Virus record (IMG/VR): IMGVR_UViG_3300032084_000320
Coordinates: 1-44,022 of that record
DNA: 44,022 nucleotides
Strand: one strand, 5' to 3'
Origin: a virus
Both the position numbers and the translations under genes were made by a program. The notes beneath the pieces are model-generated. The model worked only from the letters and a program-made list of their open reading frames with translations, had not been told where the DNA came from and did not search any database. Shown here piece after piece: positions 19,224 through 38,567 of this stretch. Numbering within the stretch: position 1 is the first letter of the stretch; the number at the start of each line of letters is the position of its first letter.

Positions 19224-19399
19224 TACCAGATACCTGGGATGATTTGTCCAGTCAGTGCATAAGAGCCAAAAGCAGCCATGATGCCAAGCATAGCGAGGCG
19301 ACCGTTGAGCTGCTCAGCTCGTTCGTTATGTGGGACACCGTAGGGATGGTCAGTCATAATGATAGTAGGTTCAGTAGGCCAGATGTTCGTGTCGTTCAT
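19223..19399 (-). CDS. hli: High-light-inducible protein (Hli)
   Basis: 58 residues. The single membrane helix carries the chlorophyll-binding signature: [18 protein letters not shown] at residues ~27-43, then [15 protein letters not shown]. Hli proteins are one-helix relatives of plant light-harvesting proteins; they bind chlorophyll and carotenoid and protect photosystem II during its repair. Cyanophages pair hli with psbA to keep photosynthesis running during infection. The ATG shares a base with the psbA stop (TGATG), and its stop shares a base with the next ATG, so it should be made in step with D1. Confidence 0.93.
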
Positions 19400-20475
19400 C
19401 AGCCGACGGTGGGGGCGGATAGAGCCACCGGAGTTGCTTCAACAGAAGCAAGGTCCAGAGGGAAGTTGTGAGCGTTGCGCTCGTGCATGACTTCAAATCC
19501 CAGGTTCGCTTGGTTAAGGATGTCGGCCCAAGAACGAACCACACGTCCCTGAGAATCAAGAAGGGACTGGTTAAAATTAAAGCCGTTAAGATTAAAAGCC
19601 ATCGTGCTAACACCAAGGGCAGCGAACCAAATACCAACAACAGGCCAAGCAGCCAGAAAAAAGTGTAGACTTCTGCTGTTGTTAAAACTCGCGTATTGGA
19701 AGATGAGTCGTCCGAAATAGCCATGTGCTGCTACGATGTTATACGTTTCCTCTTCTTGCCCAAACTTGTAGCCATAGTTTTGGGACATGTCCTCCGTCGT
19801 CTCACGGACGAGAGAAGACGTGACCAGGCTGCCGTGCATAGCAGAGAACAAGCTCCCACCAAACACGCCGGCAACACCCAGCATATGAAAAGGATGCATG
19901 AGAATATTGTGCTCGGCTTGGAAAACGAGCATATAGTTAAACGTCCCGGATATCCCCAGAGGCATCGCATCTGAAAAAGAACCTTGCCCAAAAGGATACA
20001 CCAGGAAGACAGCAGTCGCCGCAGCGACCGGAGCAGAGTACGCAACAAAGATCCAGGGCCTCATCCCTAGTCGATAGCTAAGTTCCCACTCACGACCCAT
20101 GTAGGCGTAGATGCCGATGAGGAAGTGGAAAGTGACGAGTTGGAATGGACCCCCGTTGTACAGCCATTCATCAAGTGAAGCAGCTTCCCAAATTGGGTAG
20201 AAGTGTAGTCCGATGGCGTTGCTGCTCGGAACGACGGCTCCTGAAATAATGTTGTTTCCATACAACAGGGAGCCTGCGACGGGTTCGCGGATTCCATCAA
20301 TGTCAACAGGGGGTGCAGCCACGAAGGCTACAATAAAACAAATGGTTGCTGCCAACAGGCAGGGGATCATGAGGACCCCAAACCAACCAACATAAAGACG
20401 GTTATTTGTGCTGGTAACCCAGTCACAAAAAGACTCCCAAGGTGAGCTGGGAGCCTGTTGAGTAAGTACAGTCAT
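19399..20475 (-). CDS. psbA: Photosystem II D1 protein
   Basis: 358 residues from the ATG at 20475. Full-length D1 with five membrane helices. It has [19 protein letters not shown], the [16 protein letters not shown] segment with Glu at the position equivalent to residue 130 (the high-light form), [15 protein letters not shown] (Asp170 equivalent), and a C-terminus with [13 protein letters not shown], giving the manganese ligands His332, Glu333, His337, Asp342 and the Ala344 processing site by alignment. The QB-side loop reads [16 protein letters not shown]. All key residues are present, so it should be functional and replace photodamaged host D1. It lies between scaffold and hli with TGATG overlaps on both sides and no promoter of its own visible. 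Confidence 0.98.
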
Positions 20476-21347
20476 CAAACTTTAAGGTTAGATCGTTCAA
20501 GTTTACGCATGACATCCATGCGGTAAGCCTCATCCGTATCATACCTTGAGTCAGACATATCGCGTACAACTTCTGCCATACTGCGATATCCCTCACCTTG
20601 GTTAGACTGTTTACCAGTCACCAGTTCGGGGTCACGACCCATGGCATCTTCGTATTGAGACATAAGTGCTTTCACTGCAAAACGTACAGCGGCTTGGTTT
20701 GCGGTGTTAATAACTTCATCGAATGCTTCGATGTCTTCTTGTGGCAGATTCTGACCTGCCCAATCAACAAGGCGTGCGTAACCATCTTCACCGCCCGCAA
20801 TGTTCTTGATCTGACTGATCTCAGAATCTGAGAGGGCAACGGCTTCAGAGTCGTCGTAACCCATTTGATTGCGTAGACCACCGAGGTAAGCATCAATGAC
20901 TTCATCACTGAAACCTGCCTCGTTCAGTTGATCGTACATCTCATTGGTGAGAGTACCATCGTTCTGATAGAAGTGATCGTTCATCTCCCACGGATCAATA
21001 CCTGCTTCTTGGAATACACCAGCAAGGTTGTCACCGTAGGCATCTTTAACAGCGTCGAAGTTAACATAACCTTCTTCGTCGTAGCGTTCGTAGCCGTCAT
21101 CAGTTGACTCTTCTACTTCACCTTCTTCGACTTCTTCGGTCTCTGCTTCTTCGCCTCTGCCAAAGCGTTGCTGAAGTTCCATGTAAGCTTTCTCAAGCTC
21201 TTCAGCATTTTTGTATTTACCAGCAAGAAGATCCTGCTGGTCTTGCATCATCTTTTCCCCAACTTCTAGAGAGTCAGCTTCATCAGCTTCACGAGCTGAG
21301 ATCACTTCGGGATCGTCAGATGGATCGTATGAAATGTTGATTGCCAT
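20475..21347 (-). CDS. Capsid scaffolding protein (T7 gp9-like)
   Basis: 290 residues (T7 gp9 has 307). Very acidic: a Glu-rich stretch ([15 protein letters not shown]) near residue 68 and many Asp/Glu throughout, with predicted helices ([20 protein letters not shown]) and a basic C-terminal helix ([11 protein letters not shown]) such as scaffolds use to bind capsid subunits. It follows the portal and precedes the capsid region, as in T7. Its TGA overlaps the psbA ATG, so a virion-assembly gene and a photosynthesis gene are translationally coupled. Confidence 0.88.
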
Positions 21348-23525: not shown

Positions 23526-24207
23526 TTGAGTGCTCAAAGAATGCGGGCATACGAGCACGACGGGTAGCAATCAGACCCTCCGCCTTCCCGTTGTAGAGAA
23601 GGCTGTCCGATTGTTTGAGCCAGAACTCGCGGTCAAGGTAAGGGTTCTCGTTAGAGCCGAGGGGCTGCATGATCCAAGCTACCGTGGCTTTGCGAAGCTT
23701 GTCAAGGTTCTGCGTAACTTGGAGGCCAAGCTCTTTGCAGACGAGAGAGTTGACCGCCACGTGGACTTGTTCGTCTCGTGAGATATCAGCTGAGACAGTG
23801 CGGCATCCTGCGTCCCCGTTCCATCTAAAGAAGGGGAGCAGCACAAAGAACACTGACCGTTCAAGCACCATTGCCTTGAGCACGGGATGTTCGGGAGACT
23901 CGATCCATGCTTTCTGGATTCGGGCAGCTTCCGGGATATCTTCCAGCTGATGAGCACGAGCGATGTAATCAAGAGCGAGGTCATGTTTCTCCTCATCCTT
24001 AATGTTGCTTTCCAATACTTCTTGGGCAGCAGCAGGATAATCTTTTTTGAGAGCATTTTTAATGAAGTCACCTACGGGGATCTCAAGGTTACGAACCGAG
24101 AGAGCACGCAGCATGGCTTCTTCAGAGCCAGGAGCAAAGGTACCTGCCTCTACCTGGACCGGAGTCCAGGAACGTTTACGGGAAAGAAGTTTCTGATAAG
24201 GGTTCAT
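23500..24207 (-). CDS. nrdB: Ribonucleotide reductase class I small subunit (R2), tyrosine-less
   Basis: 235 residues from the ATG at 24207, much shorter than typical R2 (~320-375). Ferritin-like metal ligands are visible: E72-x-x-H75 in DEEKHD, E116 in LERSVFF, and E146-x-x-H149 in SRDEQVH; the first carboxylate is probably E42 or D47. The residue four after H75, which holds the radical tyrosine in classical R2 (Y122 in E. coli), is Leu79. It may therefore use a metal-based radical like the tyrosine-independent subclasses; that is inference. Its ATG forms ATGA with the R1 stop, so the subunits are co-translated. The product supplies dNTPs for phage DNA. Confidence 0.85.
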   Translation of the reverse strand: MNPYQKLLSRKRSWTPVQVEAGTFAPGSEEAMLRALSVRNLEIPVGDFIKNALKKDYPAAAQEVLESNIKDEEKHDLALDYIARAHQLEDIPEAARIQKAWIESPEHPVLKAMVLERSVFFVLLPFFRWNGDAGCRTVSADISRDEQVHVAVNSLVCKELGLQVTQNLDKLRKATVAWIMQPLGSNENPYLDREFWLKQSDSLLYNGKAEGLIATRRARMPAFFEHSNVNLPEYG

Positions 24208-25583
24208 TCTGCACAATCACATTGAGGTTCTTTAGAGAACGACTCATACTGTTTCCAGAACTCCTCATCAAACTCATCCAGCGCAGCCATGGCATCACTC
24301 TTATCTTGAGTGTCGGGCATAACCTGCAGAGAATAGTAGAGAGAAGTCTGTGGACTAGTGAGCCACTCTTCAATGAAGGATTGGTCGTAGGTCACGACGT
24401 CGCTCCAGCTATTCATGGAGTATCCATGCAACAGTCCAGTTGATTCCAACAGGACCATGATGTTGTCAGCAACCTTTCGATACGCTTCCCAGCCAACCTG
24501 GCTAGCGATCTCCACGTTACCGTATTCATAGTGTTCAACACCAAACGTACCACTGTCACGATCCACCTCATTGGAAATGGGAGGAGCAATCTCAGGGCAG
24601 GTGGTGTAGCCGTCCAGATCCTTGTAGCGGTAGGAGCAGCTAGCGGTCGGTGCAATGGCAAATGCTCGGCTCATTTTGTTAGCTCGTGCAATTTGCGCAG
24701 CGATCTTAACACCACGCTTGAGAGCGTTGGCAAGCTTGTCAGCCGAAGAGGGACCGACTTGATCGTTGTTCACACGTTCCAGAGCATCGCCAAACTCTGC
24801 GTAGGTTACTCCGTTCCGCCGTAGGAAGTTGGCGAGTCCAAGCATTCCGAGACCAACCTGGCGATCTGTTTGAGAAGGGAGGTATTCTCCAGTGTCTCCC
24901 ACACCTGTTCGGGAGTGCAGCTCGCACAGCTCGGACATTCCTCGGGCAAACGCAGTTTCAACGTCACCGTATTCGCATCCACCGAGGTTGACATGCTGTA
25001 GTAAACAAGTGCCTCGTGAGGGCAGATAGACTTCCAAGCATACGTTGCCATAGATTCGCTTACCTTTTGCATCAACTTTAGTTTTGTTTAGCCAGACGTC
25101 ACCCTTCTTGATTGCAGAAAGGAGAGCAGTACGAACTTCATCCGTTGCTTCAGCCCACCAATACTCGTTAATGTCAACGCAACGTTTGACCCAAGGTAGC
25201 TCGGCACGATTAGCATTGATGAACTCAAGAATGTCAGGGTGTTTGAGATCGAGGTGAATAACTACCGCTCCGTTTTTATAGACGCCACCTCTTCGTAGTG
25301 TCTCGTTAAGCACGGAGTAGATTTTTGCAAACGAGACTGGGCCAGAAGCAACCAAGCCTTTGCCATTCTCAGCTCCCTTGGGTCGGAGTTTGGAAAGGTG
25401 AATCGCCACTCCTGCTCCATTTCGGAGAGCGTGGCTAGCAAATCGCCAAGATGCTTCGATGCCCTCTGGTCCTTCCATGCTGTCTTCAACAACAAAGACA
25501 GTACACGATACGGGTAGGCGAGAAGTTGGATCATCCATCCAGTTTTGTACACGACCGGTGCGGGCGATCAAATCAGTAGACAT
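24204..25583 (-). CDS. nrdA: Ribonucleotide reductase class I large subunit (compact)
   Basis: 459 residues from the ATG at 25583, lacking the usual N-terminal ATP cone. Active-site residues are present: C27 (PVSCTV) and C193 (RGTCLL) as the redox pair, N180-V-C182-L-E184 with the radical cysteine, a phosphate-binding APTASCSYR, and the Y416-Y417 pair (SLYY), which is specific to class I radical transfer. The tail ends QCDCAE, the shuttle cysteines. The tyrosine pair and adjacent R2 gene argue against the class II (B12) label such cyanophage enzymes often received. The loss of the ATP cone implies no overall dATP inhibition. One base separates it from the mazG stop. Confidence 0.93.
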   Translation of the reverse strand: MSTDLIARTGRVQNWMDDPTSRLPVSCTVFVVEDSMEGPEGIEASWRFASHALRNGAGVAIHLSKLRPKGAENGKGLVASGPVSFAKIYSVLNETLRRGGVYKNGAVVIHLDLKHPDILEFINANRAELPWVKRCVDINEYWWAEATDEVRTALLSAIKKGDVWLNKTKVDAKGKRIYGNVCLEVYLPSRGTCLLQHVNLGGCEYGDVETAFARGMSELCELHSRTGVGDTGEYLPSQTDRQVGLGMLGLANFLRRNGVTYAEFGDALERVNNDQVGPSSADKLANALKRGVKIAAQIARANKMSRAFAIAPTASCSYRYKDLDGYTTCPEIAPPISNEVDRDSGTFGVEHYEYGNVEIASQVGWEAYRKVADNIMVLLESTGLLHGYSMNSWSDVVTYDQSFIEEWLTSPQTSLYYSLQVMPDTQDKSDAMAALDEFDEEFWKQYESFSKEPQCDCAE

Positions 25584-25584
25584 T

Positions 25585-25953
25585 TTAAACGAGATCAGTA
25601 AGGTTAGGGGGTTGATAGTTAGGTCCTTTGAGGACCTTGCCGTCCTCACGTTTAATAGGCTTACCGTCTTCGCCTAGTTTGGACATATTACTTGTGTGTA
25701 CACGACGGAGAGCTTGCTCAATATCCCAGTCCATGTTCTCAGCGTACTGAGCACAGACGTAGATAAGATCAGCAAGCTCTTTCAAACAATTCTCTCTAGT
25801 CTTGGGGCACATGGTGACCATCTCACGGTCAGCCTCCAGAAACTCTTTGAACTCTTCAACGATCAAACGGGTTTGTGTCGCCCTCAAGTTCAAGTCGTTC
25901 GGTATACCGTATGCTCGGCGGAACTCGATCGCCTGGTTGCTCAGCAATGACAT
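25585..25953 (-). CDS. mazG: MazG-like nucleoside triphosphate pyrophosphohydrolase
   Basis: 122 residues. The N-terminus (NQAIEFRRAYGIPNDLN) and the split metal-binding motif E-E-F-K-E-F...K-E-L-A-D-L-I-Y (the E-x-x-E and E-x-x-D pairs) identify an all-alpha NTP pyrophosphatase. Cyanophage MazG has been proposed to adjust (p)ppGpp-like signals or, from biochemical work, to prefer dGTP/dCTP; either fits its place beside ribonucleotide reductase. The start lies inside DUF3310 (98-base overlap), and the conserved N-terminus shows that the overlap is real. Confidence 0.9.
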   Translation of the reverse strand: MSLLSNQAIEFRRAYGIPNDLNLRATQTRLIVEEFKEFLEADREMVTMCPKTRENCLKELADLIYVCAQYAENMDWDIEQALRRVHTSNMSKLGEDGKPIKREDGKVLKGPNYQPPNLTDLV

Positions 25954-26146
25954 GTTGAAGTTCGTTCTGAAGATAATGAATAGCTTTGACTAGATCCTGC
26001 CTCTTGCTGTCTTTGTATCCAGCACGGCAGATGTATTTAATAGCGTTACCAAGGTGGAAGTTCAGTCCTTGGTCTCTGATGAAGTCCCAAACTTGAATGG
26101 ATCCTCTGCGGTAGTAGTCTGGTCCTCGGTCATTGGTGTCGGCCAT
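25856..26146 (-). CDS. DUF3310 protein (T7 gp1.7 nucleotide-kinase-like domain)
   Basis: 96 residues. The block DYYRRGSIQVWDFIRDQGLN then FHLGNAIKYICRAGYKD and DLVKAIHYLQNEL matches DUF3310, the C-terminal domain of T7 gp1.7, which phosphorylates dGMP and dTMP. The full kinase domain of gp1.7 is longer, so activity is uncertain. The last ~32 codons are shared with mazG in another frame, and the first ~28 codons with the nblA-like gene. Confidence 0.85.
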   Translation of the reverse strand: MADTNDRGPDYYRRGSIQVWDFIRDQGLNFHLGNAIKYICRAGYKDSKRQDLVKAIHYLQNELQHVIAEQPGDRVPPSIRYTERLELEGDTNPFDR

Positions 26147-26343
26147 TGTTTGACTAGGTTGGAAACAGTGTTGGAGAGCACAAAGTTTTGGTGTTGAAGA
26201 GCCTCGAAGACAATGATGATGTCTTCCTTACTAGCGTCTTGCAGTAAGTCTTTAAGCCTTCTCAGTTTGAACTGCTGCTCGATCGTTAGCTCCAGGACAG
26301 GGGGTGGGGGTCCAGAGGATCGGCGCCGATTCGATGAAGTCAT
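26062..26343 (-). CDS. nblA: NblA-like phycobilisome degradation adaptor
   Basis: 93 residues from the ATG at 26343. After a basic, Pro-rich leader the core LELTIEQQFKLRRLKDLLQD matches the first NblA helix (NblA proteins read L-S-L-E-Q-Q-F-K-L-R near the N-terminus). A second helix follows (EDIIIVFEALQHQNFVLSNT) and ends in LVKQW, like the NblA C-terminus. NblA links phycobiliproteins to the Clp protease, dismantling the antenna. The C-terminal extension after KQW (~26 residues) is unusual. The gene overlaps the exonuclease by 92 bases and DUF3310 by 85. Identity rests on motif recognition; a helical phage protein with chance similarity is the alternative. Confidence 0.72.
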   Translation of the reverse strand: MTSSNRRRSSGPPPPVLELTIEQQFKLRRLKDLLQDASKEDIIIVFEALQHQNFVLSNTVSNLVKQWPTPMTEDQTTTAEDPFKFGTSSETKD

Positions 26344-37785: not shown

Positions 37786-37938
37786 TTAATAATAGGCTTC
37801 AGAAATTTCTACCAAAATTTCACGACACTCAAACTCACGAATTTGTTGCTGATCATTCATAACCTCTACTTTATACAAAGCAGGGCCAACCTGAGTTAGC
37901 CCCACAATGCACATATTAAGAAATACGTTGCAGATCAT
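37786..37938 (-). CDS. 50-residue protein coupled to thyX
   Basis: MICNVFLNMCIVGLTQVGPA then LYKVEVMNDQQQIREFECRE and ILVEISEAYY. Beta strands followed by a helix. The ATG overlaps the thyX stop (ATGA); the ATG nine codons in (MCIVGL) may be the true start. No family recognised. The GC-rich non-coding region begins right after its stop. Confidence 0.7.
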   Translation of the reverse strand: MICNVFLNMCIVGLTQVGPALYKVEVMNDQQQIREFECREILVEISEAYY

Positions 37939-38567
37939 GTCCACATAGCTTCATAAATTGACGGACAGTGCTCCTCAAGCAGATCCTTAATACCCTCAGC
38001 AATCATACGATGCTCTTTCTGCGTCCCAGGATCGGCTCTAAGGTCCACGTAATGCAGCCAAGACCGAATAGTACCGTTCATATACAAACGGCTAGGGATA
38101 GCCATAGGAAGCACGTCACGTGCACACTCTTTAGCAACACCTGCCATGATCAGTTGACGGTAAACATCTTGTGAATGTTTAAACAGACACTCAATCTCCT
38201 TCTGAAGAAACAAGTCTTCTTCTGCTTGTTCAATACTATTCTGCCTATTCTTATCATCCTGTAGCCGTAGCTGTGGTCTAATAGGCTGTCCTAGCTGTTC
38301 AACGTTAGCATACCGTTGACTAAACTCTTGGAATGAGAATGATCTGTGTCGTAGGATCTGAGCTGCTACTGCTCTGGTAGTGTTAATCTCTACCACCATG
38401 TTAGCCATCTCAAAAGGAGACCAATGCTTATGCTTGATCAGGTATTTAAGAAGGCGTGGAGCAGTTTCGTGATTGGTTTGGTTGTTGGGGTTAGATACTC
38501 GTGCACAGTAAGCTACCAGCTCTTCTGCATCAGGAGTAATGGAAACGAGTTTAACGGTGTGGGTCAT
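37935..38567 (-). CDS. thyX: Flavin-dependent thymidylate synthase
   Basis: 210 residues. The ThyX motif R-H-R-x-x-S-x-x-x-x-S-x-R is present as RHRSFSFQEFSQR near residue 80, preceded by HWSPFEMANMVVEI and followed by LPMAIPSRLYMNGTIRSWLH. It makes dTMP from dUMP using methylene-tetrahydrofolate and reduced FAD. It lies apart from the ribonucleotide reductase genes, after the terL terminator, with an AT-rich promoter-like stretch upstream, so it may be separately expressed with early genes. Confidence 0.96.
   Translation of the reverse strand: MTHTVKLVSITPDAEELVAYCARVSNPNNQTNHETAPRLLKYLIKHKHWSPFEMANMVVEINTTRAVAAQILRHRSFSFQEFSQRYANVEQLGQPIRPQLRLQDDKNRQNSIEQAEEDLFLQKEIECLFKHSQDVYRQLIMAGVAKECARDVLPMAIPSRLYMNGTIRSWLHYVDLRADPGTQKEHRMIAEGIKDLLEEHCPSIYEAMWT

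Follow-up and report, generated by a model that had tools for sequence, protein, structure and literature searches.

A reading frame of 93 codons in the viral DNA analysed here (IMG/VR record IMGVR_UViG_3300032084_000320, 44,022 nucleotides, the whole of which is referred to below as the window) belongs by sequence to the NblA family and is conserved as a protein. It is very probably a true orthologue of the NblA of clade-B T7-like cyanophages, acting as an NblA adaptor by homology. The frame is read without a stop from the ATG at 26343 on the minus strand and gives the product MTSSNRRRSSGPPPPVLELTIEQQFKLRRLKDLLQDASKEDIIIVFEALQHQNFVLSNTVSNLVKQWPTPMTEDQTTTAEDPFKFGTSSETKD, in which the two stretches that first drew attention to it, EQQFKLRR and LVKQW, are both present. 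The Pfam NblA profile (PF04485) matches it with E 7.7e-7 and 29.9 bits, where a gathering score of 25 is required, and the alignment covers profile positions 1-49 of 50, so that the identity proposed in the original prediction was borne out. The same profile is found at E 0.01 or better in 22 of 27 relatives. The best solved relative of the protein is NblA 3CS5 (E 1.4e-4), and when a profile of the 27 relatives was compared with the PDB, all four matches at E <= 1 were NblA chains (best 4e-4). With a profile of 26 relatives, built without the window's own row, the frame scores 144 bits and the next-best frame of the window 5 bits. Residues E22, Q23, L49, Q50, N58, L63 and W67 are invariant in the alignment of 27 sequences. 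In Anabaena NblA, Leu51 and Lys53 are presumably the residues of the C-terminal helix used for phycobiliprotein binding; by the alignment to 3CS5 they correspond to the invariant L63 and to K65, which is variable in other relatives.

The AlphaFold2 model, calculated from an alignment of 16 sequences (IMG/VR rows only), comprises helices at residues 21-35 and 39-66 joined by a loop, and a disordered tail, which agrees with the two-helix layout expected and is not a fold unlike that of NblA. Block pLDDT is 89-93 across residues 21-60, with a single-chain pTM of only 0.39. Foldseek comparison of this model gave 0 matches in the PDB and none under E 1 among viral models, a short two-helix monomer with disordered ends being a weak query. 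Solved NblA proteins are four-helix dimers which bind phycobiliproteins and ClpC (PMC7966870).

The surroundings of the gene (Table 1) are as first described: the exonuclease, DUF3310, MazG-like and ribonucleotide reductase genes of nucleotide metabolism adjoin it, and psbA and an hli frame lie on the same contig. The Chloroa_b-bind score of the latter is below the cut-off of 22.3 bits, hence it was named by its motif too. A ThyX-type thymidylate synthase is encoded at 37935-38567 of the window, minus strand (Pfam Thy1, E 1e-47). The psbA closest to that of the phage among the 80 matches listed (91% identical) lies on a contig titled as a Gammaproteobacteria MAG (locus L093), which is likely mis-binned cyanobacterial or phage DNA.

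Table 1. Features of the window around nblA, the overlaps of the gene and the repeat copies (positions in the window)
Feature	Position	Strand	Basis or remark
hli (high-light-inducible protein), 58 aa	19223..19399	minus	LNGRLAMLG motif; Chloroa_b-bind 18.5 bits
psbA (photosystem II D1)	19399..20478	minus	Pfam Photo_RC, E 7e-89
Ribonucleotide reductase (RNR)	24204..25649	minus	Pfam Ribonuc_red_lgC, E 6e-22
MazG-like nucleotide pyrophosphohydrolase	25585..25953	minus	Pfam PRA-PH, E 3e-7
DUF3310 protein ('nucleotide kinase' in related phage records)	25856..26146	minus	Pfam PF11753, E 8e-13
nblA, 93-aa NblA-family protein, core residues 18-67	26062..26343	minus	Pfam PF04485, 3CS5 match, orthologues
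nblA C-terminal extension over DUF3310 5' end, out of frame, 85 nt	26062..26146	minus	Substitutions at DUF3310 codon position 3
GGACCA, Gly-Pro of DUF3310, downstream GGACC copy, 188 nt from the first	26120..26125	minus	
nblA stretch overlapping no annotated neighbour, 105 nt, ~35 codons	26147..26251	minus	
nblA 5' part (leader, PPPP, start of helix 1) over exonuclease 3' end, out of frame, 92 nt	26252..26343	minus	Residues 12-29 constrained in nblA frame, 2-11 not
T7 gp6-like 5'-3' exonuclease, 256 aa	26252..27022	minus	Pfam 5_3_exonuc_N, E 5e-12
GGACCC, Gly11-Pro12 of NblA, upstream GGACC copy	26308..26313	minus	

The gene is widespread at this place. By tblastn it was found in 37 cyanophage records, all of them T7-like cyanophages, with one further chance-level faecal match; 45 IMG/VR contigs have it too. 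Almost every clade-B T7-like cyanophage recovered carries an orthologue in the same exonuclease/DUF3310 interval. Among 206 loci with both neighbours (not dereplicated), 124 have nblA and 82 do not, and nearly all of the latter belong to one clade, Tangaroavirus, together with four clade-A phages. Every examined Synechococcus clade-B phage has the frame, the copy of S-RIP1 reading as frameshifted (L015, 1214-1611; an HNH-endonuclease frame follows, and decay or sequencing error may be responsible). A podovirus-like exonuclease (42%) also adjoins nblA in a picocyanobacterial assembly (L143; genome G031, contig C3 of about 21.7 kb), and this is a phage contig or a provirus. Many records leave the gene unannotated, those of S-TIP37, S-SBP1 and S-RIP2 carrying no CDS for it, and the failure of gene callers to detect it may be due to the overlaps with its neighbours. 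The PHROG family of the window protein (PHROG 27006) is listed as 'unknown function', thus PHROG-based pipelines will miss NblA as well.

The start of nblA lies 92 nt ahead of the exonuclease stop (26252) and its end 85 nt past the DUF3310 start (26146), so that nearly two thirds of the gene is shared with other reading frames. Which frame is under conservation was judged from the divergence at codon positions 1/2/3. The basic, proline-rich leader described in the original prediction does exist; the proline run is ordinary conserved NblA sequence (3CS5 starts PPLPDFSLSVEQQF), and residues 2-11 vary freely (0.41/0.49/0.40), which rules out the leader as a targeting or DNA-binding signal. The C-terminal extension is likewise present, but it could not be upheld as an NblA trait. 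Divergence in nblA codon positions is 0.20/0.44/0.41 for residues 68-82 and 0.06/0.19/0.13 for residues 83-93; it is highest at nblA position 2, the third position of DUF3310 codons, which indicates that DUF3310 is the conserved frame. The tail is, as far as these substitutions tell, mostly a by-product of reading on into DUF3310. This is supported by a locus (L029) where nblA and DUF3310 are separated by an HNH-endonuclease frame that starts where DUF3310 would start; NblA terminates there at VKQWPTQ with an intact core and no extension. A new NblA domain in the extension is ruled out on both grounds and, given the overlap structure, the conserved tail should not be taken as NblA function.

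A probable deletion scar is found in Tangaroavirus, the clade whose exonucleases are nearest to that of the window among isolates (NATL2A-133, 9515-10a, P-SSP10, P-SSP6 and P-SCSP-R27W; 75-78%), these five phages all having been isolated on Prochlorococcus. In the four of these whose exonuclease-DUF3310 DNA was read, nblA is absent. The exonuclease ends there with ILWTPVL and DUF3310 begins with MTAKSQSYGP-QYYKRG, the first ten residues of which correspond to the leader of NblA in relatives (MTSPPANQSYGPPPP in L251), while the remainder is DUF3310. The junction, where leader and DUF3310 meet in frame, is GGACC. In the window and its closest relatives this sequence flanks the missing ~190 nt on either side, the copies being 188-194 nt apart. 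The fused start occurs throughout the clade (in L154-L157 the junction is near locus position 1683-1730). In a tree built from four proteins (exonuclease, polymerase, RNR and MazG), Tangaroavirus is the sister of the group that holds the window and is nested among the phages with nblA (SH-aLRT 99; 100/100 in a second tree). It is favoured that Tangaroavirus lost nblA by deletion between the two GGACC copies, loss being preferred over later gain, and that the nblA start and leader became a new DUF3310 start.

Two other accounts of the locus have to be weighed. Since nearly two thirds of nblA overlaps other frames, a two-helix frame might have arisen by chance from the overlap of exonuclease and DUF3310. 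The non-overlapped core tells against it, because residues 32-65 diverge by 0.29/0.17/0.58, as expected where purifying selection acts on the protein of the nblA frame; the nblA frame is still the constrained one at residues 12-29, within the exonuclease overlap (0.23/0.07/0.55 and 0.20/0.06/0.51), and the family is present in over 100 loci. A chance origin is scarcely credible and is refuted by the codon-position data. It might also be argued that the Tangaroavirus junction is ancestral and that nblA was inserted later, independently, in two other branches: two gains are as parsimonious as a gain followed by a loss, and clade-A phages are also without the gene. Against this, both nblA-bearing branches share the place, the two overlaps and about 50-75% protein identity. 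The nblA-like DUF3310 start MTxxxQSYGP occurs only in Tangaroavirus, whereas clade A and many nblA-bearing phages share another one (a short M... then SPxHY). Joining all nblA-bearing phages as one clade was rejected on the four proteins (AU p 0.0017; 30 rows, no mixture model, the tested group having been picked after the pattern was seen) but not on the exonuclease tree alone (AU p 0.30). Step counts being equal, the shared site, the shared overlaps and the derived DUF3310 start favour loss, and independent gain is regarded as quite improbable. The scar offers a natural comparison: phages that are near-sisters differ in whether they carry nblA, and the division follows host type as far as can be told from isolates.

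By homology with other NblA proteins, the window protein would bind phycobiliproteins and ClpC and cause phycobilin loss. As the family and earlier publications on viral NblA suggest, the phage protein would be made during infection, dimerise through its two helices, bind phycobiliproteins by its C-terminal helix and dock them on ClpC, whereupon the host Clp protease would degrade the phycobilisome. Such breakdown may free amino acids and reduce the light captured, with photosystem II kept running by psbA and hli. Phage NblA recovered from marine metagenomes caused phycobilin loss in S. elongatus (PMC9602691).

The host side of the picture is less uniform. Prochlorococcus has no phycobilisomes, thus the loss of nblA in Tangaroavirus fits a phycobilisome role. 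In P-GSP1, a phage of Prochlorococcus MED4, the NblA-like frame (L160, from about 1629) is without the EQ motif and the Trp, and nblA is probably decaying there. In the clade of P-SSP7, P-SSP2 and NATL1A-7 the gene is constrained (0.39/0.21/0.53), and NATL1A-7 and P-SSP3 have Prochlorococcus as host in their records; a role confined to phycobilisomes does not account for the constrained genes of P-SSP7, P-SSP2 and NATL1A-7. Tentatively, and rather against the odds, phage NblA may have a second target besides the phycobilisome and in the P-SSP7-type lineage bring something else to Clp, such as residual phycoerythrin or a protein outside the antenna. The same constraint and the same Prochlorococcus hosts could be taken further, to an NblA fold kept with its function changed into an adaptor steering another host or phage protein to Clp, phycobilisomes being at most a side target. 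This is very improbable, as the gene was lost outright in Tangaroavirus and looks degenerate in P-GSP1, both on Prochlorococcus, and is retained across the examined Synechococcus clade-B phages, frameshifted in S-RIP1.

The occurrence of NblA in cyanopodoviruses is already published, and the window phage adds one member. According to PMC9602691, Nadel et al. 2019 predicted it in 14 isolates of cyanopodoviruses. A further study of viral NblA is that of Nadel et al. 2025 (Nature 648:434) and, as a review of that study relates (PMC12892361), viral NblA is credited with lowering the light capture of ocean cyanobacteria by up to 5%. In the literature found, where both papers of Nadel et al. are represented through citations, neither the overlap analysis nor the deletion scar was met.

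In comparison to known systems, the closest are the NblA of cyanopodoviruses such as S-TIP37, S-RIP2, S-CBP1/3/4 and P-SSP7, the same gene at the same exonuclease-DUF3310/MazG/RNR place with about 42-65% identity; S-TIP37, KBS-P-1A and others end about 15 residues earlier, whereas in the window protein the leader is rich in arginine and the overlap tail is long. Cyanobacterial NblA (3CS5, 1OJH, 2Q8V, 2QDO; PF04485) shares the helix-loop-helix core, the PPxPxxxLxxEQQF start and the conserved C-terminal helix, but comprises about 60 aa as against 93 in the phage form, the added disordered tail being the phage's. In picocyanobacterial hosts only weak PF04485 matches are seen in some genomes (e.g. 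L142). Of 151 RCC307-family genomes, a single one passes the cut-off, and in six cyanobacterial genomes with close psbA no NblA was found. Proteins of RCC307-family hosts score near zero with the podoviral NblA profile, which argues that the phage gene is no recent copy of a gene in the sampled hosts. The NblA of freshwater cyanophages and cyanomyoviruses (Ma-LMM01, S-TIM5, S-SCSM1) belongs to the same family with the same proposed role (PMC9602691); these are other phage types, and the podovirus NblA clusters apart from theirs in the tree of that paper.
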